A stretch of 33,670 bases of DNA. It comes from Siphonobacter sp. BAB-5405 (lineage in GTDB: Bacteria; Bacteroidota; Bacteroidia; Cytophagales; Spirosomataceae). The notes beneath the pieces were generated by a model. It did no database searches. It was given only the letters and a program-made list of their open reading frames with translations, and had not been told where the DNA came from. Shown here one piece after another: positions 4,968 to 20,465 of this stretch (its first letter is position 1; every line of letters begins with the position of its first letter). Location of the stretch: assembly GCF_002872335.1 (NCBI RefSeq), contig NZ_NJAG01000025.1:55640-89309 (forward strand), given 5' to 3'. A program made the translations under genes and the position numbers.

Positions 4968-5930
4968 TTATTCTTTAGGAAGCGTAATCCGGATATTCCG
5001 AAACTCAATCGGACCGTGATCGCCCTGGAGGTAAATCGGACCCGGTTCGGCTTCGTTGCTGTCGATGGCTCCACCCGTAATACCCGGAATGGTGGTGTCG
5101 CAGATAATGGTTTTTCCGTTTAAGGCGACCGTTACCCGGCGACCAATGAGCGTGATGTCATAGCTCTGCCACTGATCTGCGTCATTCTCCGGAAGTTCAT
5201 TCGGTACCAGGAAACCGTAGACGGCACCCAGCATGTCAATTTGTGGTTCAAGTCCTTTGCTGTCGACGATCTGTACTTCATAGCGTCCCCGCAGGTATAC
5301 GCCGCTATTGCTTCCCTTGGGATACTTGAATTCAAGGTGCAGTTTAAAGTCTGAAAACCTCTGCTCCGTCTGGATGTTCGAGCCGGATTTGGGACTTTTC
5401 AGTACACCATTTTCCACCACCCACTGATTGGTCTGGCCCATGGCCTTCCAGCCTTTCAGGTCTTTTCCGTTGAATAAATCCATCGATTTGCCCCAGTTCG
5501 GCTGTTTGGTGCGGGCCAGCGAAGGAGCCCGTACGCCCGTCCAGGAAACGCTTTGGCCCGCAGGCGTCGTCATGGTGCCACTGAGCTTGTCGCCTTCCAG
5601 CGTTCCGTTTACAACCAGATCCTGCGTGGCTCGTTCCCATTGCGGAGGAATGGCGAAGCTAAGTTTCCCATCCGCAAAAGTTACTTTAGAAATCGGACGG
5701 GCACTGCCGCTACTGCCCACAAACCGGCCCACGAGCGTGTTATGACCCGAATGTGTCACCTCCAGCCAGGAGGGCATGGTGTTGTTTCCCGACTGAACGG
5801 TCAGATCCCAGCGTCCTTCGAGAGACGTAGCCGCCGGAGCAACCGCTGGCTTGCGGTCTTCGGCATAAACGGAGAGACTGGTTGCGGTAAGCGTAACCAG
5901 CGTAAGGGTACGCAGCATGGAGGAAAGCAT
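4968..5930 (-). CDS. DUF1080 / 3-keto-disaccharide hydrolase domain protein, exported
   Basis: The C-terminal 170 residues (about 148-320) form a DUF1080 domain, now called 3-keto-disaccharide hydrolase, with a concanavalin-like jelly-roll fold. Recognisable segments are SMDLFNGKDLKGWK, WVVENGVLKS, FKLHLEFKYP, NSGVYLRGRYEVQI and the terminal PIEFRNIRI. An N-terminal domain (about residues 35-140, LEGRWDLTV... SGTMTTPAG) looks like a small lipocalin-like beta-barrel. A signal peptide precedes it; the start may be the ATG at 5930 or the one at 5918. In characterised members the domain cleaves 3-keto glycosides made by FAD sugar dehydrogenases, none of which lies nearby. A -7 element is present upstream and a terminator follows. 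Confidence 0.85.
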   Translation of the reverse strand: MLSSMLRTLTLVTLTATSLSVYAEDRKPAVAPAATSLEGRWDLTVQSGNNTMPSWLEVTHSGHNTLVGRFVGSSGSARPISKVTFADGKLSFAIPPQWERATQDLVVNGTLEGDKLSGTMTTPAGQSVSWTGVRAPSLARTKQPNWGKSMDLFNGKDLKGWKAMGQTNQWVVENGVLKSPKSGSNIQTEQRFSDFKLHLEFKYPKGSNSGVYLRGRYEVQIVDSKGLEPQIDMLGAVYGFLVPNELPENDADQWQSYDITLIGRRVTVALNGKTIICDTTIPGITGGAIDSNEAEPGPIYLQGDHGPIEFRNIRITLPKE

Positions 5931-5967
5931 AGAGGTCTGAACGGATTAATGGTCGTGTACGAATGCT

Positions 5968-5975
5968 CAAATCTA
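5968..5975 (-). promoter_or_regulatory. Bacteroidota -7 promoter element upstream of the DUF1080 gene
   Basis: On the minus strand this octamer reads TAGATTTG, an exact match to the Bacteroidota sigma-ABfr consensus TAnnTTTG. It lies 38-57 bases before the two possible start codons, a sensible leader length. No good TTTG -33 box is found at the expected 19-21 base spacing, so the assignment rests on the -7 element alone. Confidence 0.5.
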
Positions 5976-6058
5976 GGCATCTAAACGCTGGTATAAAAGG
6001 ACCAGCAAAGAATGAAGCGGGTGAGTTACTATATTGCTGACGAAAAGGACCCTCACCT

Positions 6059-6736
6059 ATGCATAAATCCTTACTCGTCCTGTTGCTGGCGTTCGCTGCC
6101 CGGGCCTCTGCCCAGTCGGACACGCTAACGAATCACTACGTACGGCTACAGCCCTTACAGCTTTTGTTTAGGGAATTGGTGGTGGGCTATGAATTTCCGT
6201 TCACTCAAAAATTCACCCTCGAAGTAGGAGTCGGGTACCGATTTCGCCGATTTAGTCATTCGCCCGAAATTAAAGGACTGGCTCTGGGGATGATGGGTGA
6301 TTATAACCTGCAAAATATGGGAAATCCCCATTATCAGGCCGTAAAGTTTTCGATTACGCCCCGCTATTATCTGAATGCCCGCAAAACCTTTTTTCTGGCA
6401 ACCGAGCTGTTTTTCAGACACTGGTGGTTTGACAACGTACAGGCTAAATTTGATAATACAGAAGGCTACCGTTTTGACGCAGTACGAACCGAACGAATGA
6501 ATGTTTGGGGCGGGAAACTACTGATAGGTACGAATGGCAAACTGTTCTTACTAGGCAAAAATCCGGTGTACTGGACTCCTTTCCTGGGTTTCGGACTTCG
6601 GTCCAAAACCTACACCTATGAAACCTGGGACGGAACCCTGGGGGATACCCCCGTAACGTACCAGAAAGAGAGGGGTACTGTCAGCCTGTCGCCCAGTATT
6701 CATTTGGGCGTATCGCTGGCGTATCGCCTTCGCTGA
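6059..6736 (+). CDS. outer-membrane-type protein, paralog 1 of a tandem pair
   Basis: This is a 225-residue exported protein with signal peptide MHKSLLVLLLAFAARASAQS. The mature part has alternating polar and aromatic residues consistent with transmembrane beta-strands (KFTLEVGVGYRFRRF, KFSITPRYYL, FFLATELFFRHWWF), ending in a strand with a C-terminal aromatic/basic tail (VSLAYRLR). An eight-stranded outer membrane barrel is the likely architecture. It is clearly homologous along its whole length to the next gene; both carry QPLQLLxRELVV, LQNMxNPxYQ and NVWGGK/DVWGGK blocks. The function is unknown. The genes overlap only if the second one's long start is used. Confidence 0.7.
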   Translation: MHKSLLVLLLAFAARASAQSDTLTNHYVRLQPLQLLFRELVVGYEFPFTQKFTLEVGVGYRFRRFSHSPEIKGLALGMMGDYNLQNMGNPHYQAVKFSITPRYYLNARKTFFLATELFFRHWWFDNVQAKFDNTEGYRFDAVRTERMNVWGGKLLIGTNGKLFLLGKNPVYWTPFLGFGLRSKTYTYETWDGTLGDTPVTYQKERGTVSLSPSIHLGVSLAYRLR

Positions 6737-6780
6737 TGGTCTCGAAGCTAAACAGTATACATGAAACCAATCAAATCCCT

Positions 6781-7467
6781 ATGAAACTCATACCCAAACT
6801 AGGCTTATGGATATTACTCACGGTCTCGACGAGTGTGTACGCCCAATCGGATACGGTATGGAATCAGTACTTGCGAATCCAACCTTTGCAATTGCTGTGT
6901 AGAGAGCTGGTGGTAGAATACGAGTTTCCCGTGACGGAAAAACTGACCATTGGACTGGGGGCTGGATACCGGTTTCGCAAGTCCAGCGGTACGTCAGAGG
7001 TGGCGGATTTAATGCGAATCATGACGGCTGATTACCGTTTGCAAAATATGGCTAATCCGTATTATCAGGGCGTTAAGTTCTCCCTTAGCCCCCGCTACTA
7101 TCTGGATACCCGTAAATCCTTTTACGTCTCGGCGGAGCTATTTATGCGGTACTGGTGGCTGAATCGCCTGGATGAACAGTACCTCAATCCAAAGGGTACC
7201 TATGTTCGGGCCCGAAAAAGCGAAGAAATGGATGTCTGGGGAGGAAAAATACTGGTAGGATTGAATCGAAAACTGGTTTCCTTCTCTGCTCATCAGGCCG
7301 TGTACATCACCCCGTTTCTGGGGATTGGGTTTCGGCATAAAGCGTACACCTACCAACGCATCTACCTGTCCTCTTTAGCCAGCGATACTGGCGATAACGA
7401 AAGGGGAGGAATGAATCTGGCAGGCCTGCACGGTGGCTTCTCTCTGGCGTATCGCTGGGCTCGCTAG
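6781..7467 (+). CDS. outer-membrane-type protein, paralog 2 of a tandem pair
   Basis: This is the second member of a tandem duplication. The frame is open from 6736, overlapping the previous stop, but the ATG at 6781 is preferred because it begins the signal peptide (MKLIPKLGLWILLTVSTSVYAQS) and gives a protein collinear with the upstream copy. Conserved blocks include QPLQLLCRELVVEYEFP, LQNMANPYYQGVKFSLSPRYYL and MDVWGGKILVGLNRKL. It ends in a barrel-like strand (GGFSLAYRWAR). The mature protein has a beta-barrel pattern and no catalytic motif. The gap to the upstream gene is 44 bases, so the pair is probably one transcript, ending at a strong terminator. Confidence 0.7.
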   Translation: MKLIPKLGLWILLTVSTSVYAQSDTVWNQYLRIQPLQLLCRELVVEYEFPVTEKLTIGLGAGYRFRKSSGTSEVADLMRIMTADYRLQNMANPYYQGVKFSLSPRYYLDTRKSFYVSAELFMRYWWLNRLDEQYLNPKGTYVRARKSEEMDVWGGKILVGLNRKLVSFSAHQAVYITPFLGIGFRHKAYTYQRIYLSSLASDTGDNERGGMNLAGLHGGFSLAYRWAR

Positions 7468-7529
7468 TACGCCATGCGTAGTGAAAGTAGCGTTCTAAAT
7501 ACTTACAGATCTGGATAGAATTAACGAAA

Positions 7530-7564
7530 AAAACCTCATCAGATTACAGATCTGATGAGGTTTT
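7530..7564. terminator. bidirectional intrinsic terminator
   Basis: This is a perfect 15-bp inverted repeat: 7530-7544 (AAAACCTCATCAGAT) pairs with 7550-7564 around the five-base loop TACAG. It has an A-run on its left flank (from 7527) and a T-run on its right, so it can terminate transcription from both sides. It lies between the convergent outer-membrane paralog pair and the dynamin-like GTPase gene. Confidence 0.9.
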
Positions 7565-7592
7565 CTAAATACGAGCCAAGTCGCTAGTGAGG

Positions 7593-9752
7593 TTAATTTT
7601 TATGCGTGGAGAGGTAACTTCTCAGTTGATCGACTTGTTCATTGCTTTGTTGAAGCACCTGCTGGTTGAAATTGATCTTTTCGTAGGTTTCCACCCAGAT
7701 TCGCACGCGATTCCGCTGATAGAAAATTTCCCAGTTGTCCTTGGTATTTTTAGCCTTGAATAACTGATCGAGCAATTCTTCCACCAACGCAAAAGACATT
7801 TTATTGAGGTCTTTCGCCCAGACGTCGAATTCATTCTGAATCTTGTAGAGACAGGCCTCCACGGAGCTGACGATGTAATTACGAATGTCTTCGGCCGTAT
7901 CCTCCCGGGACAGACGCACCGAAACATAATCCGGCGTCAGGATATCCAGGTGTTCCCGAATCCGGAAGTGTAGAAAACCTAAATACGACAACTGGAACTG
8001 AGCGAACGATTGTACGGGCAGGTGTAACGAAGGCATGGATTCCAGCTCCCGCAACAGACTCACCTCAAAAGATTCATGAGGGTGAACAAGGCCCGCCAGA
8101 CGACCTTCCGTTTTAAGAATATCAAAAATGCGTTGACGCACCTGCTGGATCACGTCATTGAGCGTATCACCCAATTTCAGAAACTCTTTCGTGATGAACG
8201 TGCGGTGCTCGTTCAGATATTCTTCGTACGTCTTATTATACGAGCCCAACGCATTACGGCTCAATTCAATATCCCGAATGGTCAGATTGGCGGCATATTC
8301 CAGACACGACTGCTTGATCTGATCGAATTTTTCCTGAATCTGCAGGTTGGGCGAATCCCGCAGGGCGTTGAGTTCTTTCAGGTTCTCTTCGCAGGCATTG
8401 GTTAATTCCTGCCAAAGGGTATTGAATAAGCTTTTGAAAGTGGCGAAATCCGTCATATCGTCGGGGGGAGTAAAAATTCCGTTAAAATAGTTAATTACCT
8501 GATGAAGGGCTCCATCGATACTGGTCATTTTCCGCTGGTATTCCAGAGCATATTGTTGATCCCAGTCATCGAGTTTATCCTGCATATCTTCCAGAACAGC
8601 CCGTAGTACGTTTTCTTCGACTTCCTCGGCACTGGCACAGTCTACCGTAACGATCTTGCTAAAGAACAAACCGTTGCGATCCGTACTGTCTTTTAAATCC
8701 TGGCAGTTCCGGGCATTGTCCGTCAAGGTCTTGGTATGATTCAGGAGCAGAAAGGAGCAGGCGGGCAGGCTGATGCCCGGAATCGCCATCTGTTCAAGGG
8801 AGTTTTCACAGAACTGATACAGGTCCAGATCGGCGGGTTCCCAGACGGCCCCCAACGCATCAGGTTTGCGGACAAAAAGAATAAAATCAATATCACTGGC
8901 CAGCGACCGAATCAATTTCTGCTCATTGACCAGTCCCGTATCACCCAGTCCCGGCATGTCAATCAGCGTAATCGGGCCTGCTTCCGCCAGGGGGAAAGGC
9001 GTGTCAATATGCACCTGTTTAACGGCCAGATAGGCGTAACTGGCCTCGCGGTTTTCGTTCACCTGGGCAATGTACTGCCGCACCTGATGCAGGGGAACTT
9101 CCTGCGTAAGGCCCGTCAGTAAGTGATTGAACGAGGAAAAGTTACGGTGAATTTCCTGGAGCTTCTGGTAACGGGCTACGGTAACCGGACTGGTATCCTC
9201 GGGCTGATCCGGTAAGGCCTGCGAAACGAACTCAGCCAGGTTGGCCGGACTATACTGCAAGTCCAGTTCCTGAAAATAAGGAGATACCGTTGACTGGAAA
9301 AAGCTCGTCCGGCTGTGAAATTCTACCAGAGCCCGGGCTTTGTGACTATCGTTGGCAATGACACTCATGACGCCCGTGCAGTGCGGGCCATTGCCGTCGG
9401 GAATGACCTGGGAATTCAGTCCGGACAGGCTTTGCAGCAGTCTGCTTTTTCCCTGGCGGGCTCTGCCAATGACTCCAATGCTGATGCTTTTGCGGGAAAA
9501 TCGCTGACTGAGCTGAACCAGATACTGTTGTTCTTCTTCAATTCGCTTGAGAAGCGTGGGCAAATTAGCCCGATCAATGGCCTGGATGACCTGGTCAGAC
9601 GCATGATCCGATATTTTTAGTTTAACATTTTCCAACACTGACATCGAGTGGCTCATCAAAGCGAGCCGCTGCATGTCCTGCGTGATTTTATCCGCAAACT
9701 GCCCCCGCTTCTGGATGATCTGCTGGATATTGGATACTATGAAATTAGGCAT
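7593..9752 (-). CDS. dynamin-like GTPase
   Basis: This 719-residue protein has a large dynamin-type GTPase domain at about residues 85-400. Motifs are G1 GRARQGKS (96-103), a G2 threonine at 126 (CTGV), G3 DMPG (265-268, within LIDMPGLGD) and a G4-like NHTK (338-341). The flanks are helical. The N-terminal 85 residues and the C-terminal 300 residues look like helical bundle/stalk segments. No clear transmembrane paddle or signal peptide is visible, so it is probably cytoplasmic and acts peripherally at membranes if at all. Bacterial dynamin-like proteins often occur beside a second GTPase, and here a smaller GTPase gene lies 186 bases upstream on the same strand. The exact function is unknown. 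It could be membrane repair, division or phage tolerance. Confidence 0.85.
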   Translation of the reverse strand: MPNFIVSNIQQIIQKRGQFADKITQDMQRLALMSHSMSVLENVKLKISDHASDQVIQAIDRANLPTLLKRIEEEQQYLVQLSQRFSRKSISIGVIGRARQGKSRLLQSLSGLNSQVIPDGNGPHCTGVMSVIANDSHKARALVEFHSRTSFFQSTVSPYFQELDLQYSPANLAEFVSQALPDQPEDTSPVTVARYQKLQEIHRNFSSFNHLLTGLTQEVPLHQVRQYIAQVNENREASYAYLAVKQVHIDTPFPLAEAGPITLIDMPGLGDTGLVNEQKLIRSLASDIDFILFVRKPDALGAVWEPADLDLYQFCENSLEQMAIPGISLPACSFLLLNHTKTLTDNARNCQDLKDSTDRNGLFFSKIVTVDCASAEEVEENVLRAVLEDMQDKLDDWDQQYALEYQRKMTSIDGALHQVINYFNGIFTPPDDMTDFATFKSLFNTLWQELTNACEENLKELNALRDSPNLQIQEKFDQIKQSCLEYAANLTIRDIELSRNALGSYNKTYEEYLNEHRTFITKEFLKLGDTLNDVIQQVRQRIFDILKTEGRLAGLVHPHESFEVSLLRELESMPSLHLPVQSFAQFQLSYLGFLHFRIREHLDILTPDYVSVRLSREDTAEDIRNYIVSSVEACLYKIQNEFDVWAKDLNKMSFALVEELLDQLFKAKNTKDNWEIFYQRNRVRIWVETYEKINFNQQVLQQSNEQVDQLRSYLSTHKN

Positions 9753-9846
9753 GGAGTCAATTCAATAAGAAAAGTGTAAGAAAAACACAGCGAGAATCCG
9801 AAAATCCAGTCATCCTTTTGATCAGGCACAAAACAATCCAGTAAGA

Positions 9847-9874
9847 TTACCTGACGACGCTCCGTCGCCAGTAA
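9847..9874 (-). other. intercistronic hairpin between the two GTPase genes
   Basis: On the minus strand, CTGGCGACG (complement of 9863-9871) pairs with CGTCGTCAG (complement of 9851-9859) around a three-base loop. The one non-Watson-Crick position is a G-U pair on the minus strand but an A-C mismatch on the plus strand, so the structure favours the operon's transcript. Flanking TTAC/GTAA can lengthen it with one bulged base. No U-tract follows, so a processing, stability or attenuation role is likelier than termination. Confidence 0.5.
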
Positions 9875-9938
9875 CCCTGCCTGAGCTGGCTCTGGAAATT
9901 AGCCGTCCGTGTGATTTCTGAACGAAACAAAAAAGCGG

Positions 9939-10865
9939 CTACCTGAGTACTTTCAGATTACTGTAGTTCAGGCACCGCGAGTGCAATCGTTCGTTCGTAG
10001 ATTTCAGGTAGTTAAGTTCTTTAAACAGGTTTCTGAAAAAGCCCATCAGGCCTTTCTTTCTTTTCAAATAATACTGCTCGAAAATGAAGGAAAATAAGTA
10101 GAGGTAAGGATATTCAATATTCTGGGGATTAAACTGATTGCGTTGCGTAACACTAAATACAGGCTTCCATACTTCCGTATTCAGGATTTGTACCTTTTTG
10201 TGATACATGAATGAAGCATTACCCAACGTTTGAATGGGAATGATCGCTGATTTAAGGTTATCCTGAAGACCCAGAAAGTCAAAAATTTTCTGGTACACTT
10301 CATGAATTTTCAGCGTTAAGTCCTTGGTCAGCGTATCATTGACCAGATACGTTTCGCATTTGGTTGGAATGAACAGAACCAGTTTTGTATCCGGATTTTT
10401 TTCTAGCCCCAGCTTCAATACATCCAATAGATTCTGGACATTGTTTTTACATTCTTCCATGTCGTTCATGACGGCTGACGAATCGATGGGAATGACAATG
10501 ACGGAAGAATCCTGAATAAAATTGACGACTTTTTCCGTATCATCCGTAATCCAGTTTCCCGGAATATCACGGAACGAAACGACCAGAAAAGGCTCTGAGT
10601 TTTTGTGAGAAATTTCTAACGGATAGGTGGATACAGCATCCGTTGACTGAATTCCATCGAAATAAGTAATGGTGCCCTTGCCCAGCGAGGCAATGAGCTT
10701 CTCCCTATTTTGATCTAACTGGGCAGCTAACTGGGAATCCAGGGTCAGGTTTAAACCAATACTACTGGCCAAATCGCGGCGGATGTTATCATCCATTGAA
10801 GATAAAAACGTAGTTTTTCCTTCACCGGATGCGGCTAGCATCGTGACATTAATAAAGGTTTGCAT
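9939..10865 (-). CDS. TRAFAC-type GTPase partner of the dynamin-like protein
   Basis: This 308-residue cytoplasmic protein has a GTPase-like core. A P-loop AASGEGKT lies at residues 11-18 (the usual first glycine is alanine). G3 DIPG is at 100-103 within VVSFRDIPGNW, and a G4-like PTKCE is at 167-171 after a hydrophobic strand. The arrangement recalls the TRAFAC GTPases seen in predicted bacterial conflict modules (double-GTPase or GTPase-plus-effector systems), but I cannot assign a Pfam family with certainty. The C-terminal 100 residues are aromatic and basic (YPYLYLFSFIFEQYYLKRKK), which could touch membrane or the partner protein. Base composition is visibly AT-richer than in most neighbouring genes. 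An AAGGAG sequence lies about 14 bases before the start codon. Confidence 0.7.
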   Translation of the reverse strand: MQTFINVTMLAASGEGKTTFLSSMDDNIRRDLASSIGLNLTLDSQLAAQLDQNREKLIASLGKGTITYFDGIQSTDAVSTYPLEISHKNSEPFLVVSFRDIPGNWITDDTEKVVNFIQDSSVIVIPIDSSAVMNDMEECKNNVQNLLDVLKLGLEKNPDTKLVLFIPTKCETYLVNDTLTKDLTLKIHEVYQKIFDFLGLQDNLKSAIIPIQTLGNASFMYHKKVQILNTEVWKPVFSVTQRNQFNPQNIEYPYLYLFSFIFEQYYLKRKKGLMGFFRNLFKELNYLKSTNERLHSRCLNYSNLKVLR

Positions 10866-10917
10866 GGGTGAATAATAAGCTCCTTGGACTTGGCGATTTA
10901 ATTGGATCAGGTCTTTA

Positions 10918-10934
10918 TCCTGAGCTATTCAGGA
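10918..10934. promoter_or_regulatory. inverted repeat upstream of the GTPase cassette, proximal
   Basis: TCCTGA (10918-10923) and TCAGGA (10929-10934) form a perfect 6-bp inverted repeat with a five-base spacer, about 53 bases before the start codon of the GTPase gene. It could be an operator or a small leader hairpin. A repeat this short can arise by chance. Confidence 0.25.
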
Positions 10935-10987
10935 GTGAAGGCCGTCATCATGGATCATATTTAGCACTGAGGTTGTCTTGATAAGGT

Positions 10988-11006
10988 ACAGTCTGGCGAC
11001 GACTGT
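10988..11006. promoter_or_regulatory. inverted repeat upstream of the GTPase cassette, distal
   Basis: ACAGTC (10988-10993) and GACTGT (11001-11006) form a perfect 6-bp inverted repeat with a seven-base spacer. It contains the 9-mer CTGGCGACG, which also forms one arm of the hairpin between the two GTPase genes, in opposite orientation. It lies about 120 bases before the GTPase start. It is a possible operator with weak statistical support. Confidence 0.28.
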
Positions 11007-11757
11007 TCGGCTCTATATCCGTATATGTATGAAGCGGCAATCATGAAATGATAATTTTTTAAGTGTAGGTGCTTAAACTTTACTTCTTTCATGACTCCGA
11101 AAGCAAATCTTTCTGGTATTTATTAAACGTATAATTTGCTTATAGTCAATACATTTTAAGGGACATGGCTGATTTCAAAAAGTCAACCTGTCAGGAAATT
11201 ATTGCGTTATGAATTAGATACCAAATAAACCGAGTGAAATGCTGAAAATAATTCCTTTCCGTGCAGAGCTTGTAGGAATTTGCTTAATTGATTATTAAAT
11301 GATAATAAATTTTAAAATTTCGGAGATGTTTTAGAAGCCCATTTCAGTAAAATTCCTTTCCGTCAATTACCCAGGATTTAGGGTTAAATTTTGTAAAATA
11401 TTATTTGAAACTATATAGATTAATTACTCGCATTGCTCTGATTATTAACGTAAAACAGCCAATTAGTAAAAGAATTAATTCTTCGTTTACTATAAAGACG
11501 AATGGAGATGATTAAAAACTTTCTTTACATGAATGTATCGCTAATGGTTATGTGAAGGCCTATAAAATACTAGTGTATTTAGTTATATTTAAAGTGTGAA
11601 TAGTTATAATTGTAATAAAAATAGTAGACGCTACTCAGGCACGCTTGCTGAGAGGAATTCTTTACCAAAACGGGACTATTCGTATTGCAGCCATGCCAGT
11701 ATTTAATTGATGAAGGCTCACGCACAGCAAATACGTAACCCTTTTCACTGGAAGTCT

Positions 11758-12171
11758 ATGAGAAAAATAACCTTGATCCTGGCTATTGCGGTAGGCTTTG
11801 TTGCGTGCAGGAGCGGACGTAATTCTGGTGTAAAAACAAGTCAGAAAGTAGGGTATACCTTTTCTGACTATAACCTGGCCCGCAAAGCCCCGGATCATTT
11901 ACGAACGCCGGAACAGCAGACAATGCTCATCCAATTAAGCAAAACCGTAGCGGATCATATGGTCGTTGAGCAGAATCAGCTGGTATTTAAAATGAGTGAA
12001 GAAGCGTTTGTTAAGAAGGGGATGCCGAAAGAGTTATACGCTGAGATTCAAAAGAATATGGAGACGAATAATAAATACCTGGCAACCATGGAGCCCTCAG
12101 AATTTGACCTGGATGAAATGCTGAAGAACTTCAAAGCTTCGATGAACAGGTTGGGTTCGTCAGCTAACTAA
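11758..12171 (+). CDS. small putative lipoprotein of unknown function
   Basis: The frame is open from 11707, but the ATG at 11758 is chosen because it starts a lipoprotein-type signal (MRKITLILAIAVGFVAC) with the cysteine at residue 17. The -3 residue is phenylalanine, so the lipobox is imperfect. The mature part of about 120 residues is mostly helical and charged. It includes a segment EQQTMLIQLSKTVADHMVVE followed by MSEEAFVKKGMPKELY. No enzymatic motif is visible and no family is recognised. The gene has its own terminator immediately downstream and is probably monocistronic. Its long AT-rich upstream region probably holds its promoter. Confidence 0.6.
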   Translation: MRKITLILAIAVGFVACRSGRNSGVKTSQKVGYTFSDYNLARKAPDHLRTPEQQTMLIQLSKTVADHMVVEQNQLVFKMSEEAFVKKGMPKELYAEIQKNMETNNKYLATMEPSEFDLDEMLKNFKASMNRLGSSAN

Positions 12172-12188
12172 TAATCATGATCCCAAAG

Positions 12189-12219
12189 GCCTGGGTTGAT
12201 TTCTCAACCCAGGCTTTTT
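12189..12219 (+). terminator. intrinsic terminator of the lipoprotein gene
   Basis: A perfect 11-bp stem (GCCTGGGTTGA at 12189-12199, TCAACCCAGGC at 12204-12214) with a four-base loop is followed by TTTTT. It begins 18 bases after the lipoprotein stop codon. This is a textbook Rho-independent terminator. Confidence 0.9.
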
Positions 12220-12277
12220 AATGTTCTGAAGGGATTTTGGCTAAGGTCGGATGTCCCAATTTCCACGTCTAAGCAAA

Positions 12278-12607
12278 TTACTGAAACACCACCTTCTCCG
12301 GTGTAGGATACTCTAGTAATTTCGAAAAATCCACTTTCCAGAAATCCAGATCCAGCAGGCGATTGTGTTCGTCCTTCGTAAGCGTAATAACGACGGGCGT
12401 CTGATCGGAGTCGATGTAATTGACCTGTACCACGTCACCCGCGTAGGCTTCGGGATTACCGCCGAGCGAAATGCTACCCATTTTTCCACCTTCGTATTCT
12501 TCCACCAGTTCATCAATGGGATAGTCTGCCGGGTTGAGCTGTACGTGTTGCAACATATGGTGAATGAGTGCTACTTCCTGTTCGCGAATGGGCCGTCGTT
12601 GATTCAT
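12278..12607 (-). CDS. small DUF6984-like protein
   Basis: This 109-residue soluble protein has a helical N-terminal part (RPIREQEVALIHHMLQHV), an acidic loop (ELVEEYEGGKMGSISLG), then beta-prone segments (GDVVQVNYIDSD, PVVITLTKDEHNRLLDLDFWKVDF). The N-terminal pattern R-P-I-x-E-x-E-x-x-L-I and the terminal DLDFWKVDF resemble what I remember of the DUF6984 family, whose function is unknown; I cannot verify this. No signal peptide is present. It is transcribed divergently from the GH127 gene, whose start is 190 bases away, so they may share a regulatory region without being functionally linked. Confidence 0.6.
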   Translation of the reverse strand: MNQRRPIREQEVALIHHMLQHVQLNPADYPIDELVEEYEGGKMGSISLGGNPEAYAGDVVQVNYIDSDQTPVVITLTKDEHNRLLDLDFWKVDFSKLLEYPTPEKVVFQ

Positions 12608-12721
12608 AACTACATGCGAGTAAAAGACAGGCGGCGTACGGTGCCGCTGATTGCCTTCAAAAATAAACGGTTCCCGGCAAACAGGCTAACATCCTACAGC
12701 CTCTGGTAAAATTCCCGGAGC

Positions 12722-12749
12722 TTTGCCAGTCGGTAATCGTCTACTTTTG
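12722..12749 (+). promoter_or_regulatory. Bacteroidota-type promoter of the GH127 gene
   Basis: TACTTTTG at 12742-12749 matches the -7 consensus TAnnTTTG exactly, and TTTG at 12722-12725 matches the -33 box. The 16-base gap is shorter than the usual 19-21. A start site near 12,756 would leave a leader of about 40 bases before the preferred ATG at 12798, which supports that start over the upstream ones. Confidence 0.55.
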
Positions 12750-12797
12750 ATCTACGCCCTGTATCCGCGTTTGTTCGTACTAAAGTGCCTGCTTACC

Positions 12798-14819
12798 ATG
12801 CTTAACCTCATTCGCCGTATTTCCATCGCCGGACTGGTGGGTTGTAGTACCCTCAGTCTGGCCCAGACCAACAGTCTGGTCAATACTTCCCAAAGTAAAT
12901 TTTCCCGCCTCCAGAGTCTGGATTTAGATGCCGTACAGTGGACGACGGGCTTCTGGGCCGACCGCTTCCGGGTATGCCGGGATTCCATGGTACCTCAGCT
13001 CTGGAAAACCTATACCGATGCGGACGTCAGTCACGCCTACCGCAATTTTGAAGTGGCCGCCGGGCTACAGCCCGGAGCTTTCAAAGGACCGTCCTTTCAC
13101 GATGGTGATTTCTACAAGACGCTCGAATCGGTGGCGAGTATGTACGCCCTGACCAAAGATCCGAAGCTGAATAAGCACATGGACGAGGCGATTGCCGTCA
13201 TCGGCAAGGCTCAAACGCCCGACGGATACATTTATACGAAAGCGATCATCGAGCAGAAGAAAACGGGTAAGAAGCAGATGTTTGACGACAAACTCAGTTT
13301 TGAAGCCTACAACTTCGGCCACCTGATGACTGCCGCCTGCATTCATTACCGGGCTACGGGGCAGACGAGCTTTCTCGACATTGCCCGAAAAGCCACTGAT
13401 TTTTTGATTGATTTCTATACCAAAGCCAGTCCTGAGCAGGCCCGTAACGCCATCTGTCCTTCGCACTACATGGGCATTACGGAAATGTACCGGACTACGC
13501 ACGAGCCGAAATACCTGGCTCTGGCCCAGAAGCTCATCAATATTCGGGGGATGAGTGAAGGTACGGACGACAACTCCGACCGCGTACCGTTTCGCGAGAT
13601 GAAGAAAGTGATTGGGCACGCCGTACGAGCCAATTACCTCTTTGCCGGAGCCGCTGACGTATTCGCCGAAACGGGCGATAGTACGCTGCTGTCTACACTC
13701 GATCTGGTGTGGGACGATGTCGTCAACCGCAAGATGTACATCACGGGTGGTTGCGGAGCTTTGTACGATGGCGTATCGCCCGAGGGCACTTCGTACCAGC
13801 CGGATACCGTTCAGAAAATTCATCAGGCCTACGGGAAAGCCTACCAGTTGCCCAACCTGTCGGCCCATAATGAAACCTGTGCGAATATTGGAAACTTGCT
13901 CTGGAATTACCGGATGCTACAAATTACGGGCGATTCCAAATACGCGGATGTGATGGAGCTGGCTTTGTACAATAGCATTCTTTCGGGCATTGATCTGGGC
14001 GGAACGAAGTTCTTCTACACCAACCCGTTGCGGGCTTCGGATGCGTACCCGTACCAGATGCGTTGGATGGGGGGCCGTTCGCCGTACATCGCCTTGTCCA
14101 ACTGCTGTCCGCCGAATACCGTCCGGACGATTGCCGAGGTCAGTAATTATCTGTATAGTACGTCAGATCAGGGTTTATGGCTGAATTTATACGGTAGTAA
14201 TCGGTTAAATACGAAGCTACCCGATGGGTCGCCGCTGGTCGTCTCGCAGGAAACGGACTATCCCTGGCAGGGTACGATCAAAGTACGCATGGAGAAAGTG
14301 CCGACTCGGGTCTATTCGCTTTTTGTACGGATTCCGGGCTGGTGTACGGGAGCCACACTGAGCGTAAACGGGAAAACGCAGTCCGCGACATCCGGCACGT
14401 ACGCCGAAATCCGCCGAACCTGGAAAGCAGGCGATGTGGTAGAAATCAAATTGCCCATGCCTGTACAATTGATGGAATCCAACCCGCTGGTGGAAGAAAC
14501 CCGCAATCAGGTGGCCGTGAAACGCGGACCACTGGTGTACTGCCTGGAATCCGTAGATAACCCTTCCGTACCCACGGATCAGGTGGCTTTATTAACCGAA
14601 ACGACCTGGAAAACGAAGCCGCTGGGGGTGGAAGGTACACAGGTGATGGTGCTGGAAGGGAAAGCTCGCCCATTAACGCCCAAGAACTGGAACCAGCAAC
14701 TCTACCGACCGCTCCAAACGCCCAAGCCTACATCCACCACCGTTCGCCTCATTCCGTACTACGCCTGGAGTAACCGGGGGCATTCGGAAATGGCGGTATG
14801 GTTGCCGGTGGTGCGGTGA
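12798..14819 (+). CDS. GH127 (DUF1680) beta-L-arabinofuranosidase-type hydrolase, exported
   Basis: The protein matches GH127 in length and sequence, an (alpha/alpha)6 barrel followed by beta-sandwich domains. The retaining mechanism in HypBA1 uses a zinc-bound cysteine nucleophile. The zinc ligands are conserved here: Glu359 and Cys361 in NETCANIGN, and the Cys436-Cys437 pair in SNCCPPNTVRT (numbering from the ATG at 12798). Other family blocks are GGCGALYDGVSPEGTSY, SFEAYNFGHLMTAA and the C-terminal RGPLVYCLE. The frame is open from 12723, but the ATG at 12798 is followed by a plausible signal peptide ending SLAQT and lies downstream of the promoter. Substrates are probably beta-L-arabinofuranosides; RG-II-active relatives act on other sugars. 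It converges with the DUF5703 gene. Confidence 0.92.
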   Translation: MLNLIRRISIAGLVGCSTLSLAQTNSLVNTSQSKFSRLQSLDLDAVQWTTGFWADRFRVCRDSMVPQLWKTYTDADVSHAYRNFEVAAGLQPGAFKGPSFHDGDFYKTLESVASMYALTKDPKLNKHMDEAIAVIGKAQTPDGYIYTKAIIEQKKTGKKQMFDDKLSFEAYNFGHLMTAACIHYRATGQTSFLDIARKATDFLIDFYTKASPEQARNAICPSHYMGITEMYRTTHEPKYLALAQKLINIRGMSEGTDDNSDRVPFREMKKVIGHAVRANYLFAGAADVFAETGDSTLLSTLDLVWDDVVNRKMYITGGCGALYDGVSPEGTSYQPDTVQKIHQAYGKAYQLPNLSAHNETCANIGNLLWNYRMLQITGDSKYADVMELALYNSILSGIDLGGTKFFYTNPLRASDAYPYQMRWMGGRSPYIALSNCCPPNTVRTIAEVSNYLYSTSDQGLWLNLYGSNRLNTKLPDGSPLVVSQETDYPWQGTIKVRMEKVPTRVYSLFVRIPGWCTGATLSVNGKTQSATSGTYAEIRRTWKAGDVVEIKLPMPVQLMESNPLVEETRNQVAVKRGPLVYCLESVDNPSVPTDQVALLTETTWKTKPLGVEGTQVMVLEGKARPLTPKNWNQQLYRPLQTPKPTSTTVRLIPYYAWSNRGHSEMAVWLPVVR

Positions 14820-14856
14820 GGTTTTTCGTGATGTGGATGTGGTACCTGACCTTTTC

Positions 14857-14903
14857 CCCCGCATTGCATACGGGGCTATTGTTGTTAAACCCCCTTCGGG
14901 GTT
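14857..14903 (-). repeat. composite two-hairpin repeat element (single copy)
   Basis: Read on the minus strand, a first hairpin (AACCCC/GGGGTT, 14888-14903) is followed by a 12-base spacer containing AACAACAATAG, then a second hairpin (CCCCG/CGGGG, 14857-14875). The order, spacer size and spacer core resemble the tandem elements at 20,263-20,437. It lies in the gap between two convergent genes and may also help terminate transcription. Confidence 0.55.
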
Positions 14904-14928
14904 GGGGCGTATAATAGAAGAGGTAACT

Positions 14929-14979
14929 GGTGCAGGTTTCCAAACCTGTACCTACGATCCGGCAGTTTCTAACTGCCGG
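14929..14979. repeat. paired palindromes, REP-like
   Basis: Two adjacent hairpins are visible. GGTGCAGGTTT (14929-14939) pairs with AAACCTGTACC (14942-14952), 11 positions with one G-T pair. CCGGCAGTT (14959-14967) pairs perfectly with AACTGCCGG (14971-14979) around a three-base loop. Six bases separate them. Paired GC-rich palindromes in intergenic DNA are typical of repetitive extragenic palindromes; they may also block transcription between the convergent genes. Confidence 0.55.
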
Positions 14980-15013
14980 GCTATGTTGTAATGCGGGAAA
15001 CTTAGAAACCAAC

Positions 15014-17335
15014 CTACTCCGGCAATAACACCACCACATCCTTCCGCCGTTCCTCGGGCCATACCTTCAGTTGTTCCAATTTTCCATTTTTTAGTATCCC
15101 TTCCACCGTCGTTTGGTAAGGAGCGTGGAGTTTGAAATGTACGTCCCAGTTTTGGGGCCAGGCGGGAAAAAGGTACAGCTTCCGGCCATCGGCCTGTAGG
15201 AGCATTTCTTGTAATCCAATCATCCCCGAGCCGCCCCAGTTGTGGTCGGGTGTCCAGTCGTAGCCGGGACCCCAGAAGGCGGGAAAGCGGCGGCCTGAAT
15301 CCTGGAGCTTCAGTAAGGTGAGGCGAGCGGCTTCATCTCGAAGGCCGAGTCGGGCGGCGAAGATGTTATCCTGCTTCCAGCCCACGTGACTCCGAAACCG
15401 CAGGGCGTCGGGATCGTAACGATAGGTATTGATCGCCGTATCCAGATTGGCCCGACCTATGCCGTACGTACCCCAGGGAAAAACCGGATACAGTTGCGGC
15501 GTTTCGGTATTGTTAATGCGTTCCCAAAGCTGAGCGGGTGCCAGTGTCGGATGACCGTCGAAACTACGAAAACTGATACTAGGAATTCGACTCAGCATCA
15601 ATTGCCAGTGTTGTCGTTTTTCCAGATTCAGGTACGAATCGGGCAATTCGAGCAGTCGGGTTAGTACCGTTTTCAGAGCTGAAATCGTGGAGGTGGCGTT
15701 ATACGTCATCTTGTACGTTTCTGCCGCCGATCCGGGATACAAAATCAGCTTTCCAGCTCCATCAAACGTCTTACTGCCGCGTTTTTTCGCCAGATACTGG
15801 TAATGCTCATGGAAGAACGTCAGGCAGCTTTCAATGAACGGTACGTAGGCATGAATGGCGTCCCCGGCGTACCGCTCGGTTTCCAGCATCATCAGGCAAA
15901 ATTCCAGTACCGTATCCCATTCGTACTCCAGCCAGGCATTATGTTCCATGCCCGGATCATAGTCTGCCGGACGCTTCCAGCTATACTCTGCCGGGTTGGG
16001 TAAGCCAAAGTTTTCGAGTTGTTCCGTGAAGCTCGCCCCGGCGTGTTTCCAGTACACCCGCGTCCGTAATTCGGCGTTGGCCAATGCACGCTGGTAAAAG
16101 GCAAACTGGGGCTTCATCAAGGCCCAGTCGCCGCTTTTCAGCATTGGCCAATACACCAGTCGCTGGTTCTGGGCCGTATGCGTACCACCCCCCCAGTTCC
16201 GGAAATCGGGCGTAAATTTCATCGAAGAATCCGTCAGAGCGGGATCATAGGTAAAGAGGCCACCGTTGAATTTGGTTGGCCATTGACCACTGGCGTTGCA
16301 ACCCAACAGGTAGCGAAATAACTGGTAGTTGCGACCGACTTTCCATTGGGGCGTATTCGCCGCTCCGATGGTAATGAAGCTGCGTTCCCAGAAGGCTTTC
16401 CACCAGTCCAGCGTCGCTTTTCGGGCCGAACGGGCCGTTTGGGCGGATTCGTTCCGAAGGGCCGTTAAACCTTTTTTCCATTCGTGAAACGACTCATGTT
16501 GAGCCGTATGTAAATGCAGCGTGAGCGACTGTTGCCGCTGGGGGCGAAGGCTGACAAGCTGGTAGCCCCGAAAATCCGTATCCTGGTACTTCCCCTCAAC
16601 CGTACCCGCCGCTTTCAGCCCTGGTCCCGAAAGGACGCCCCCAAACGTCAGGTTTTTTAGCGGATTGTACAGTTGATTCTTGACCGAATCGAGTTGCTGT
16701 TGGCGTACCGTTACGTCGAATACCGAAGGGCCGGAACCGTTGGCATGGTAAAAGAGAATTTCATTTTCCTGAGCCTGTACGTCGTCTTTTCGTGTGACGA
16801 TTTCACCCTGCGGAGCAAATTTATACGAGTTCGCATGGTTGGCTTTGCCTTTCACGGGACGGTCGGCGTACCGCCAGCTTTCGTACGTTGCCTGGGTTTG
16901 AACGGCCCGATTACTGCTTATATCTACGTGAACGACGGGTCGAAAAACGTCCACCCAAACATCGATCTGAGCCGTGTGTGTACCCTTGCTACCCGTGATG
17001 CGTACGTGCCCTTCCTGCAGCCGAAGTTCCTGGCGAAAACGGGTTCCAGATTCGAAAGGATTGGGGGAAAGTCGCACCCGAACGCGTCCTAGTTTTAGTA
17101 GCGTATTGTTGTGATCGAAGGTGCCGCTGCGAGCTACGTACAAAAGCAGCTCGCCCTGTTCTACCCAGACGTTCAAACCTACGTCACCACCGCCGCAGGG
17201 CATGGACTCCGAAGCGTTCCGACTGGGCGTGTCCCAAACTACATTATAGGATGTTAGCGAAGGCGTTTGAGCACGAACTCCGGACAAAGACCACAGAAGT
17301 GCAGCAACTAACGAAAGTCTGAATATACCCATCAT
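15014..17335 (-). CDS. DUF5703 domain protein, putative glycoside hydrolase, exported
   Basis: The N-terminal part (about residues 25-270 of the mature form) resembles DUF5703_N, a beta-sandwich domain found at the start of large Bacteroidota proteins. The start SYNVVWDTPSRNASESMPCGGGDVGLNVWV parallels the [25 protein letters not shown] beginning of GH95, suggesting distant kinship. The C-terminal part is helical and (alpha/alpha)6-like, with family-type segments GNYQLFRYLLGCNASGQWP-like, FNGGLFTYDP, FRNWGGGTHTAQNQRLVYWP and WTPDHNWGGSGMIGLQEML. The ATG at 17335 (or 17332) starts a signal peptide ending SGVRAQT; the frame extends further upstream to 17449 but that part is not signal-like. About 773 residues result. 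Activity is not established as far as I know. It faces the frameshifted hydrolase divergently. Confidence 0.8.
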   Translation of the reverse strand: MMGIFRLSLVAALLWSLSGVRAQTPSLTSYNVVWDTPSRNASESMPCGGGDVGLNVWVEQGELLLYVARSGTFDHNNTLLKLGRVRVRLSPNPFESGTRFRQELRLQEGHVRITGSKGTHTAQIDVWVDVFRPVVHVDISSNRAVQTQATYESWRYADRPVKGKANHANSYKFAPQGEIVTRKDDVQAQENEILFYHANGSGPSVFDVTVRQQQLDSVKNQLYNPLKNLTFGGVLSGPGLKAAGTVEGKYQDTDFRGYQLVSLRPQRQQSLTLHLHTAQHESFHEWKKGLTALRNESAQTARSARKATLDWWKAFWERSFITIGAANTPQWKVGRNYQLFRYLLGCNASGQWPTKFNGGLFTYDPALTDSSMKFTPDFRNWGGGTHTAQNQRLVYWPMLKSGDWALMKPQFAFYQRALANAELRTRVYWKHAGASFTEQLENFGLPNPAEYSWKRPADYDPGMEHNAWLEYEWDTVLEFCLMMLETERYAGDAIHAYVPFIESCLTFFHEHYQYLAKKRGSKTFDGAGKLILYPGSAAETYKMTYNATSTISALKTVLTRLLELPDSYLNLEKRQHWQLMLSRIPSISFRSFDGHPTLAPAQLWERINNTETPQLYPVFPWGTYGIGRANLDTAINTYRYDPDALRFRSHVGWKQDNIFAARLGLRDEAARLTLLKLQDSGRRFPAFWGPGYDWTPDHNWGGSGMIGLQEMLLQADGRKLYLFPAWPQNWDVHFKLHAPYQTTVEGILKNGKLEQLKVWPEERRKDVVVLLPE

Positions 17336-17544
17336 GCAATGAATTGAATAGCCAGCGGAATCTCTGGAAAAATAAAGCCAGTATCCCCGAAATATGGTAG
17401 TAATAAGTGAGGAAGCCTGGCGATACTTTAGAAAAGACCAAAGAAACATACGCCGACCATTACACGCAAAATGTCCGCAAGGCTCTGGCTAAGATGGTAC
17501 AATTAAAAGAGAAAATGTTAGATAATCAGGCTGGCTTACGCTGG

Positions 17545-17552
17545 TAGTTTTG
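17545..17552 (+). promoter_or_regulatory. Bacteroidota -7 element before the frameshifted hydrolase gene
   Basis: TAGTTTTG matches TAnnTTTG exactly and lies 26 bases before the ATG at 17579. Transcription would start near 17,558, giving a leader of about 20 bases. No clear TTTG -33 box is visible. This may be the promoter for the downstream hydrolase series. Confidence 0.5.
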
Positions 17553-17578
17553 TAATTCATTCGCTCTGAACATTTACT

Positions 17579-20274
17579 ATGCATCGATTCTTTCTATTCC
17601 TTTCCCTGCTTTTTGCTTTCCACATCCAGGGGCAGGCTCAGCAAAAACTGACTCTGGTATTGCCGTCGAAAAGCCCGGAACGGGTCAGCTTTGGAGCCGA
17701 AAAACTACAGCAGAAATTACGATCGGCGGGCTATGAGGTCACCCTGGTCCGAAAGGATCAGGTAAAAGCCGACCCTTCACAAATTCGTATCGGAATTGTC
17801 GGTGACGCTCTGGTTCAGTCGCTTACCGAAAAAAGCGGCAAGGAAGGATTCGTCCTGCATAAAGAAAAAGGGCAGCCCTGGCTCATCAAAGGCAGTGACG
17901 CTTCCGGAGCCCTGTACGGGTGTCTGGAACTGGCCTCCCGTCTGCACCCCAAGCTACCCGAAACCCTGCATCTGACTGACCAGCCCGAAATGGTGTTGCG
18001 GGGTACCTGCATTGGCATCCAGAAACCGTACTATCTGCCGGGACGTACGGTGTATGAGTATCCGTACACGCCCGAAACGTTCCCCTGGTTTTACGACAAA
18101 GAGCTATGGATTCAGTATTTGGATATGATGGTGGAAAACCGCTATAACTCCCTGTATCTCTGGAACGGCCACCCCTTTGCTTCTTTGGTTAAACTCAAGG
18201 AATACCCGTACGCCGTAGAGGTGGACGATGCGACGTTCAAAAAAAATGAAGAAATGTTCCGTTTCCTGACGCAGGAAGCCGACAAACGCGGTATCTGGGT
18301 GATTCAGATGTTTTATAACATTCTGTTGTCGAAGCCATTCGCCGAAAAACATAACCTGAAAACGCAGGACCGGGAGCGGCCCATCACGCCGCTCATGTCC
18401 GATTACACGCGGAAATCCATCGCCGCTTTCGTGGCTAAGTATCCCAACGTTGGTTTGCTCATCACGCTGGGCGAAGCCATGGAAGGCGTAGGGCAGGACG
18501 ATGTGGACTGGTTTACGAAGACCATCATTCCCGGTGTACAGGACGGTTTAAAAACGATTGGGCAGAAAACCGAACCGCCCATTGTACTGCGGGCTCACGA
18601 TACGGATGCTCCCCGCGTCATGAAATCAGCGTTGCCTTTGTACAAGAATCTGTACACGATGGCAAAATTTAACGGCGAGGCCTTGACGACGTATACCCCC
18701 CGGGGAAAGTGGGCCGAGCTGCATCGCACGTTGAGCAATATCGGCACGGTACACATCGAAAACGTCCACATTCTGGCCAATCTGGAGCCTTTCCGCTACG
18801 GTTCGGCGGACTTTGTGCAAAAGTCCGTACAGGCCATGCACAACGTTTACGGAGCCAATGGCTTGCACCTGTACCCGCAGGCTTCGTACTGGGACTGGCC
18901 CTACGCCGCTGATGCCGCACCCAAACGTTTGCTACAGGTCGATCGCGACTGGATCTGGTACCAGACCTGGCTCGTTACGCCTGGAAAGCCAATCGCGATC
19001 GGGCGGGAGAGGTTACGTATTGGGGCCATGAGCTGGCTCAGAAATACGGATTGCCGCTGGAAAAAGGCAAGGCTGTACTGGAAGCCTATGAACAAACGGG
19101 CGAGATTTCACCGAAATTATTACGGCGGTACGGTATCACCGACGGCAACCGCCAGACGCTCACGCTGGGTATGCTGATGACGCAACTCATTAACCCCTGG
19201 CGGTACGGCCTCTTCACGCTGTTGTACGAATCGGAAGCTCCCGAGGGCGAGATGATCATTGAGTACGCGGAAAAAGAAGCGAAGCAGGAGAAGCACATCG
19301 GAGAAACACCGATTCGGGTAGCGGAGGAAGTGGTTGAACACGGAAAGAAAGCCGTCCAAGCCATTGACGAAGCGACGCCCGCCGTCACCAAAGATCGGGA
19401 AGAATTCAAGCGGTTACGAAACGATGTCTACGCTCAGAACGCTATGGCTCAGTTTTACGCCGACAAAGCCCGGGCGGCTGTGGCGGTGCTACGCTACAAG
19501 TATTCCGGCAAAGTCGAGGATCTGGAAAAAGCCTTACCGCTGCTGAAATCGAGCGTGGCTCACTACGCGGAGCTAACGAAGCTGACGAAAGATACCTATC
19601 TCTACGCCAACAGTATGCAAACGGCCCAGCGAAAAATTCCGATGCGGGGCGTCAATGCGACGTACAAAAACTGGTACGAAATGCTGCCCGTTTTTGAAAA
19701 GGAACTCCGCACGTTCGAACGGAAGATTGACTCGCTCAAAGCTCATACGGGAGCCACCGCTCTGCAACGAATGGCTTTTAAACCCGCGACGGTCCAACTG
19801 ACGAACGCCAGCTACTTCCCCGTACAAGCGGGCGAAAGCATTTACGCCGATACGCTGGCAAAAATCGTCGCTCTGACGCCCGAACTGAAAGACTTGAAAG
19901 GCTTGAAAATGCGTAAGAAGCAACAGCAGTCGGAGCGTACCACGCTGACGTTCCATACCGATAAGCCCGTGAAACTGCTGGTGGGTTTTTACAACGAAAA
20001 GAATGCGGCGTACCTGCGGGCACCCGAGCTGGAAACCGACGCCAGTGCCAACGATTACGGGCAGGCGGAAATCAAGATTTCCAACGCTATCCAGATCGAA
20101 GGCTTCCCGCCCGTACACGTGCATGCGTTCACGTTTGCTCCCGGTAATCATACCTTACACCTGGGTCGGGGCCAGTGCGTACTGCTGGGTTTTGTGGAAG
20201 GGGCTCAGGAAATTCCGGTATTCGACGGCGGACTGGCCGGTAATCAAAAAAACATCGACTGGTTATTCGAATAA
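17579..20274 (+). pseudogene. alpha-glucuronidase-like glycoside hydrolase, broken by a one-base frameshift
   Basis: Two overlapping frames encode one protein of about 898 residues. The first frame holds a signal peptide (ends QGQAQ), a GH67/GH20-type N-terminal alpha/beta domain (about residues 22-130, KLTLVLPSKSPERVSFGAEKL-like) and a TIM-barrel-like region with MVENRYNSLYLWNGHPFA, LITLGEAMEGVG and GLHLYPQASYWDWPY. At W464 (18968-18970) the reading should continue as ARYAWKANRDRAGEVTYWGHELAQKYG in the next frame. One missing G after TGG restores this exactly. The first frame otherwise runs on to 19177, and the second is open from 18913 to 20274 and codes for helical and beta-sandwich C-terminal domains. 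It may be a true mutation or a sequencing error. The substrate is probably a uronic-acid-containing side chain, by family resemblance only. Confidence 0.8.
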
Positions 20275-20437
20275 ACCGATTAACCCAACTAGTCAGGGGT
20301 ACGATCCCTGGAATCGGGAAATGCTTAATCGAGCAGATACCAACTCCGAAGGAGTTCAACCCGATTAGCTAGGGGTGCAACCCCTGGAATCGAGATTCGA
20401 AGGAATCAACAAAAGTAACCAGGGCTACATCCTCTGG
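20263..20437 (+). repeat. three tandem copies of a composite two-hairpin element
   Basis: Each unit has a small hairpin with a GAA-type loop, a spacer of 11-19 bases, and a second GC-rich hairpin. Unit 1 is TTATTCGAATAA (20263-20274) plus CAGGG/CCCTG (20294-20310). Unit 2 is AACTCC/GGAGTT (20342-20356) plus AGGGG/CCCCT (20371-20385). Unit 3 is GATTC/GAATC (20394-20407) plus CCAGGG/CCTCTGG (20419-20437, one G-T pair). The CCCTGGAATCG tail follows the second hairpin in units 1 and 2. The first hairpin of unit 1 includes the stop codon of the upstream gene. Stems differ in sequence but keep pairing, which suggests that structure is what matters. Confidence 0.65.
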
Positions 20438-20465
20438 CACATTCCAGCAAAAAAAAAGCCTCTCT

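Follow-up and report, generated by a model that had tools for sequence, protein, structure and literature searches.

A small TRAFAC-type GTPase encoded beside a bacterial dynamin in Siphonobacter: a candidate mobile two-GTPase module

DO-GTPases have been proposed to act as switches in conflict systems, and paired DO-GTPases occur in 38% of DO-GTPase systems according to their original description (eLife 2020, PMC7159879); a DO-GTPase has also been noted in PSP operons in another report (PMC11237479). As for bacterial dynamins, DynA delays phage lysis, clusters on the membrane and has been linked to phage tolerance (PMC8844932). The locus considered here may bring these two kinds of protein together. 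It lies in Siphonobacter sp. BAB-5405 (assembly GCF_002872335.1, 6.49 Mb in 246 contigs), in a stretch of 33,670 nucleotides that we analysed as a whole and call the window (contig NZ_NJAG01000025.1, positions 55,640 to 89,309 of the forward strand), and it consists of a gene for a dynamin-like protein (DLP) next to a gene for a small TRAFAC-type GTPase. A preliminary description, made from the DNA letters alone, had singled out this pair, which we refer to as the cassette.

Linkage of the two genes

The two genes lie side by side on the same strand with 186 bases between them, just as first described, and are transcribed with the small GTPase first and the DLP second:

7593-9752, minus strand: gene for the DLP, 719 aa, characterised by Dynamin_N match, AlphaFold2 (AF2) model, Foldseek, hydropathy and motifs
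9939-10865, minus strand: gene for the small GTPase of TRAFAC type (308 aa), whose best placement is a distant branch of DO-GTPase2, with G1 ending in GKT, G3 DIPGN and G4 PTKCE

Conservation of this arrangement was surveyed across 200 genomes from the host family, the window's among them. At a DLP match threshold of E<=1e-10 the DLP was found in 14 of them, and the small GTPase in the same 14; the small-protein search returned two further short matches (E about 0.008) in genomes without a DLP. The small gene adjoins the DLP on the same strand at 15 of the 16 DLP loci that were fetched, a count that includes one locus with a truncated DLP (L036). Rare adjacency had been named beforehand as an outcome that would speak against a system, and it is not what the loci show. 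Both genes were likewise present and adjacent on one strand at 10/10 named loci from the genome collection, nine of which belong to the family survey and the tenth to Dyadobacter frigoris. Gene order is not fixed: over 19 loci the small gene comes first in all five from the genus Siphonobacter, and the DLP comes first in the other 14. Spacing at nine of these DLP-first loci ranges from an 8-bp overlap to a 9-bp gap. At the remaining five it is 43, 50, 51, -70 and -151 bp, where the two negative values take the longest-ORF (open reading frame) start. The 13-bp gap of locus L038 stems from a long ORF call.

Chance adjacency was rejected on a comparison of 98 cross-genus locus pairs, in which the small GTPase is common to 85 and any other neighbour to only 9. 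No third gene family stays beside the pair across genera at the family loci. The two proteins have also diverged together: their pairwise identities correlate over 18 pairs (r 0.98, rank 0.85), and none of 2000 permutations gave a value as high, in a test that does not correct for the species tree. Conserved linkage and correlated divergence point to a shared function, and since adjacency survives reversal of gene order, recurs in three phyla and holds at different sites, the functional pairing that had been suggested is strongly supported. That the two genes work as one unit is thus well supported.

The evidence from the other two phyla comes from 72,556 plasmid records searched with tblastn. 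Ten carry a DLP, eight of them cyanobacterial and two actinobacterial, and the small-GTPase profile matches the next gene in four: Nostoc carneum, Aulosira laxa, Nonomuraea (a chromosome-sized record) and Streptomyces. Because the Nostoc carneum and Aulosira laxa copies are near-identical, these amount to at most three independent cases outside Bacteroidota. Conversely, three small-protein queries against the plasmid collection matched only records with a DLP adjacent (3, 4 and 3 records). In two of the other DLP records the neighbouring genes recall DO-GTPases: in Stanieria the next gene is DO-GTPase1/2-like and below cut-offs, and on the plasmid of Nostoc ATCC 53789 (L072:3128-8640) the DLP diverges from three DO-GTPase-like genes, of which one exceeds the Pfam cut-offs. 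Within Bacteroidota the cassette is sparse. A draw of 395 genomes, with at least four from the host family, was matched at full length in the window's own genome alone, besides three short DLP matches (E about 5e-6), and a genome-collection search with a single small protein gave no match. The distribution is patchy, with horizontal spread as its simplest reading.

A third gene follows the pair in Nostoc, Streptomyces and Nonomuraea, its product of 290-339 aa having a single hydrophobic stretch close to the C-terminus (the Nonomuraea gene is an ORF called in this analysis):

L065:9606-10592, L073:9253-10125 and L068:9052-10071: third genes after the pair, with a hydrophobic segment near the C-terminus

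Homology among these third genes was not shown, the best BLASTP E in a five-sequence comparison being 0.003 and the hhalign probabilities 0.3-1.3%.

Fold and motifs of the two proteins

The DLP of the window matches Pfam Dynamin_N with 32.5 bits (cut-off 27) and is laid out as a G domain at about 90-370 followed by long helices, which make up the C-terminal half of its AF2 model (pLDDT 86, pTM 0.60). With this model, the best PDB match in Foldseek is BDLP 2j69 (E 4.1e-14), and the top matches are BDLP, SynDLP and IniA. TM-scores of the seven best structure matches are low (0.24-0.32), as the stalk geometry either differs or is mis-modelled, and our claim is therefore limited to the fold class: the protein is a bacterial dynamin of the BDLP/SynDLP class with G domain and helical stalk, in agreement with its first assignment as a dynamin-like GTPase.

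The model of the small protein (pLDDT 85) finds the G domains of Arf, Rag and elongation factors, which upholds the TRAFAC-type assignment, and neither Pfam nor NCBIfam matches the protein to a housekeeping GTPase family, a membership that had been named as a reason to abandon the idea of a system. Against DO-GTPase2 (PF19993) it reaches 20.4 bits, below the cut-off of 27, so its membership rests on relatives. Four of the 15 family copies pass: the second copy in genome G020 (35.6), G192 (31.3), G183 (29.0) and G042 (27.3, scored with its frame). At E<=0.01 the DO-GTPase2 genome search does not list the 11 remaining copies, among them that of the window. Outside Bacteroidota, Nonomuraea (43.1) and Nostoc (35.9) pass and Streptomyces (14.0) fails. 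These scores lend support to the proposed link with TRAFAC GTPases of conflict systems. The cassette proteins (14-43 bits) lie far under the 195-204 bits of the canonical DO-GTPase2 proteins in genome G055, for which reason the small GTPase is best placed, going by its sequence, on a distant branch of DO-GTPase2.

Genome G055, of Spirosoma type, carries its cassette elsewhere and has two canonical operons (L111:4628-11250 and L112:659-5970). Both encode DO-GTPase1, DO-GTPase2, GAP1-N1 and a PNP_UDP_1 protein with a near-threshold EAD1 match; L111 also encodes GASH.

A DO-GTPase conflict system is recognised by GAP1 in the neighbourhood, together with GASH (type 1) or an FNIII protein (type 2). 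Among the 14 genomes that carry the DLP, GAP1-N2 was found in none and GAP1-N1 only in G055, in its two canonical operons on contigs other than that of the cassette, which serve as a positive control for the search. GAP1-M was also found in 0/14, a weak negative because both GAP1 proteins of G055 escaped the same search. The one GASH observed lies in a canonical operon of G055, with no genome-wide search for GASH and no search for FNIII made, and a Pfam scan of neighbours, covering the best 25 of 148 matched families, is uninformative on GAP1 or GASH. GAP1, the defining part of DO-GTPase systems, was not found in the cassettes.

The preliminary description had given each protein a P-loop, a DxPG motif and a G4 motif of (N/T)K type. 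The first two stand in both proteins (DIPGN in the small one); as to the third, the DLP has no NK-type G4, and neither G4 motif is canonical. For dynamin-like proteins the expected G4 consensus is (T/N)KxD; the window DLP has NHTK, and across 23 aligned DLPs, from which the split or partial Pseudanabaena and Anabaena proteins were left out, the Asn is conserved in 23/23 and NKxD occurs in 0/23. In all 19 aligned small proteins the G4 motif is PxKxE, with Glu where Asp is usual, and the window has PTKCE. A further position varies: the Glu of DxxGE, which we equate with the Walker B-region glutamate of DO-GTPase2 by an inferred placement, is present in 11/19 cassette proteins and replaced in 8/19. 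Since their G4 motifs are non-canonical, base recognition or rate in both proteins may deviate from that of standard GTPases.

Sites and DNA surroundings

Flanks differ among loci while the pair stays together, and several sites can be compared within one genus. The congener G072 has neither gene, yet the sequences flanking the window site also occur there, with 1661 bp of other sequence between them vs 6464 bp in the window. The flanks of a second site enclose 4055 bp in G083 and 320 bp in G072, and the extra stretch contains no ORF of at least 90 aa apart from the DLP and the small GTPase; G060 matches the right flank of this site, and its left flank is unaligned. Counting the second G020 copy, at yet another place, three locations are used within one genus. 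A mobile module is the best reading of this comparison of sequences. The use of different sites within the genus favours gain, and at a given site loss from G072 is also possible. Transposon-type ends were rejected, as neither L038:7900-12400 nor window 7400-12350 has long direct or inverted repeats flanking the pair. A phage origin was rejected: the DLP, the only one of the two proteins searched in this way, has no match in 50,697 phage records and none confirmed in viral contigs. PHROG has no match for the DLP and, for the small protein, one weak match (E 0.046) of unknown function.

The other features of the window that bear on the pair are these:

5826-12289, no strand: stretch missing at the same site in congener G072, holding the pair and two related genes at 6059-7467
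7530-7564, no strand: terminator-type hairpin with a 15-bp perfect stem and 5-base loop, downstream of the DLP gene
9753-9938, minus strand: intergenic spacer of 186 bp, its predicted hairpin not above shuffled sequence
10866-12290, no strand: AT-rich region upstream of the pair, G+C 0.374, the presumed promoter region

The terminator reported downstream of the pair holds up in folding (z -4.93 as minus strand, with 0/200 shuffles equally good), and a terminator pattern scan did not list it, finding 5 terminator-like sites vs a chance mean of 4.7. The AT-richness upstream is likewise real (whole window 0.512), and 11259-12108 within it has no alignment to the nearest relative; a promoter scan was at chance level. 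The hairpin said to occupy the gap between the genes fares worse, being at chance with z -0.58 and 58/200 shuffles equally good. A regulatory RNA was rejected, as Rfam has no match across 7400-12750 and the gap hairpin is at chance. One of the two related genes at 6059-7467 has a sub-threshold outer-membrane-barrel match. On the other side, window positions 12723-21998 hold genes for degradation of pectin-type polysaccharides: an aceric acid hydrolase (1157.5 bits, above cut-off), a DUF5703 protein, an alpha-galacturonidase-like ORF (839 bits, below cut-off) and a weak beta-arabinobiosidase-like match.

Possible roles and known systems

The reading we favour, and in which we place about as much belief as doubt, is that the cassette is a mobile two-GTPase module in which a small switch GTPase licenses a membrane-acting dynamin, with protection as the likeliest use. 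The DO-GTPase2-type protein would act as a switch governed by its nucleotide, sensing or integrating a signal, and once active it would bind and license the DLP. The licensed DLP would then oligomerise at the inner membrane face, and the oligomer would remodel, cluster on or seal the membrane, or perhaps break it, most probably as protection against mobile elements or envelope damage. The membrane-acting role proposed for the DLP draws on its fold match to known membrane-acting DLPs. That the small GTPase might regulate or recruit the DLP, as had been suggested from the start, is plausible.

A number of observations weigh against this reading. First, the neighbours give no clear defence island, so that a defence role argued from neighbourhood, as the preliminary description had envisaged, finds no evidence: in a PADLOC scan of 104 neighbour proteins (without a control set, the window's own neighbours lying outside the set), DndA, SspA, two PglZ and mad2 models match one protein each at E<=1e-10, at most 5 proteins in all. 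The pair itself was also run against the PADLOC models, where the DLP finds only LeoA at E 0.74 and the small GTPase none at E<=1. Second, some DLPs stand alone. L041 (8772-10955), a second copy in G183, is an intact DLP without the small GTPase and possibly a solo paralogue, and six of the ten DLP plasmid records lack the small type by the profiles used; apart from the two records with DO-GTPase-like neighbours, these are two Calothrix plasmids and Pseudanabaena, with no such GTPase as the next gene, and Anabaena, with a DLP fragment. The DLP is thus not always dependent on the small partner. Third, no more than 4/15 family copies of the small protein exceed the DO-GTPase2 cut-off in the genome search, and the Glu of DxxGE that is kept in 4/4 canonical DO-GTPases of G055 is Asn in the window. 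Lastly, the DLP has no strongly hydrophobic segment and no obvious transmembrane one (the best 19-residue hydropathy is 1.4, inside the G domain), which leaves membrane binding putative and unproven.

A bolder version of the favoured reading, possible although we would not expect it to hold, treats the cassette as a distinct, unnamed immune or membrane-surveillance system. A dedicated small GTPase switch would control the dynamin much as Rab/Arf-type switches control the membrane machines of eukaryotes, the set would be completed in some cyanobacteria and actinobacteria by a tail-anchored third membrane protein, and it would have spread between phyla as a compact cassette.

Less probable than the favoured reading, and in our view rather unlikely, is that the two proteins are hetero-oligomer partners in ordinary envelope maintenance, the small GTPase being a structural or catalytic co-factor of the DLP (GAP-like or chaperone-like) and neither an upstream switch nor a defence part. 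The tight coupling of the genes at most DLP-first loci would suit such partners, as would the missing defence island and the example of E. coli RdcA/RdcB, a DLP whose dedicated partner serves a signalling role (PMC6510439). The patchy occurrence of the cassette (14/200 family genomes), its varied sites in one genus and its presence on plasmids are unlike housekeeping genes, however, and the family closest to the small protein is one of switch-type GTPases. Still less probable is a toxin-antidote pair in which the freed DLP damages the membrane and the small GTPase keeps it inactive. The second G020 copy (L036, 9489-11431) fits this idea, its small gene being intact beside a DLP truncated to 283 aa (matching residues 433-715), as if the harmful half had been lost, and so does the finding that small-protein queries meet only plasmid records with an adjacent DLP; intact DLPs without the small type at L041 and on two Calothrix plasmids speak against it. 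Finally, a degenerate remnant of a canonical DO-GTPase/GAP1 system that kept one GTPase and an effector is very improbable, for although the DO-GTPase2 scores of relatives and the DO-GTPase-like genes beside the Stanieria and Nostoc ATCC 53789 DLPs could be traces of one, GAP1 proteins are confined to the off-cassette operons of G055 (GAP1-M being the weak case) and the branch is distant, with an invariant PxKxE motif of its own.

The favoured reading, a switch GTPase licensing a dynamin, would join two threads, one being the DO-GTPase switches that conflict systems are predicted to contain and the other the bacterial dynamins, most of whose triggers in vivo are unknown. Should the dynamin prove to be under the control of the small GTPase, these two proteins would make a compact model for switching on a bacterial dynamin. 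The pairing of a DO-GTPase2 with a dynamin is undescribed among the matches listed from titles and abstract starts of open-licence papers, a set that most subscription papers and all bioRxiv preprints lie outside, and the word "dynamin" has 0 occurrences in the main text of PMC7159879.

Compared with the DO-GTPase conflict systems (PF19993/PF19975; eLife 2020, PMC7159879), the cassette is alike in that its small GTPase is nearest to DO-GTPase2 and its neighbourhoods are mobile. It differs in having one such GTPase, whereas G055 has paired DO-GTPase1 and DO-GTPase2; in its partner, a dynamin-like protein with no GAP1 found beside it; and in its G4 motif, PxKxE as against SKSD and SKAD in the DO-GTPase2 copies of G055. 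Among dynamins, the DLP shares its fold class, by Foldseek, with Nostoc BDLP, SynDLP, IniA, the 5owv/5oxf dynamin pair and LeoA. Its P-loop continues GKSRLLQSLSGL, where nearly all cyanobacterial BDLPs are reported to have an L/INALL/I extension instead (PMC5827413). Unlike known bacterial DLPs it has no NKxD, and its partner is a small GTPase instead of a second DLP. In E. coli, RdcA-RdcB (YjdA-YjcZ) likewise joins a DLP to a partner of its own in the same operon, and the two function in signalling; RdcB is described as unlike any known family, and on that description it differs from the small GTPase (PMC6510439). The nearest printed precedent that we have seen is the HSR1 clade of cyanobacterial BDLPs, in which, according to PMC5827413, the DLP gene has downstream of it a gene coding for a GTP-binding protein that was proposed to be regulatory. 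That partner is described as HSR1-type, and the comparison with the DO-GTPase2-type protein of the cassette is one of descriptions only.

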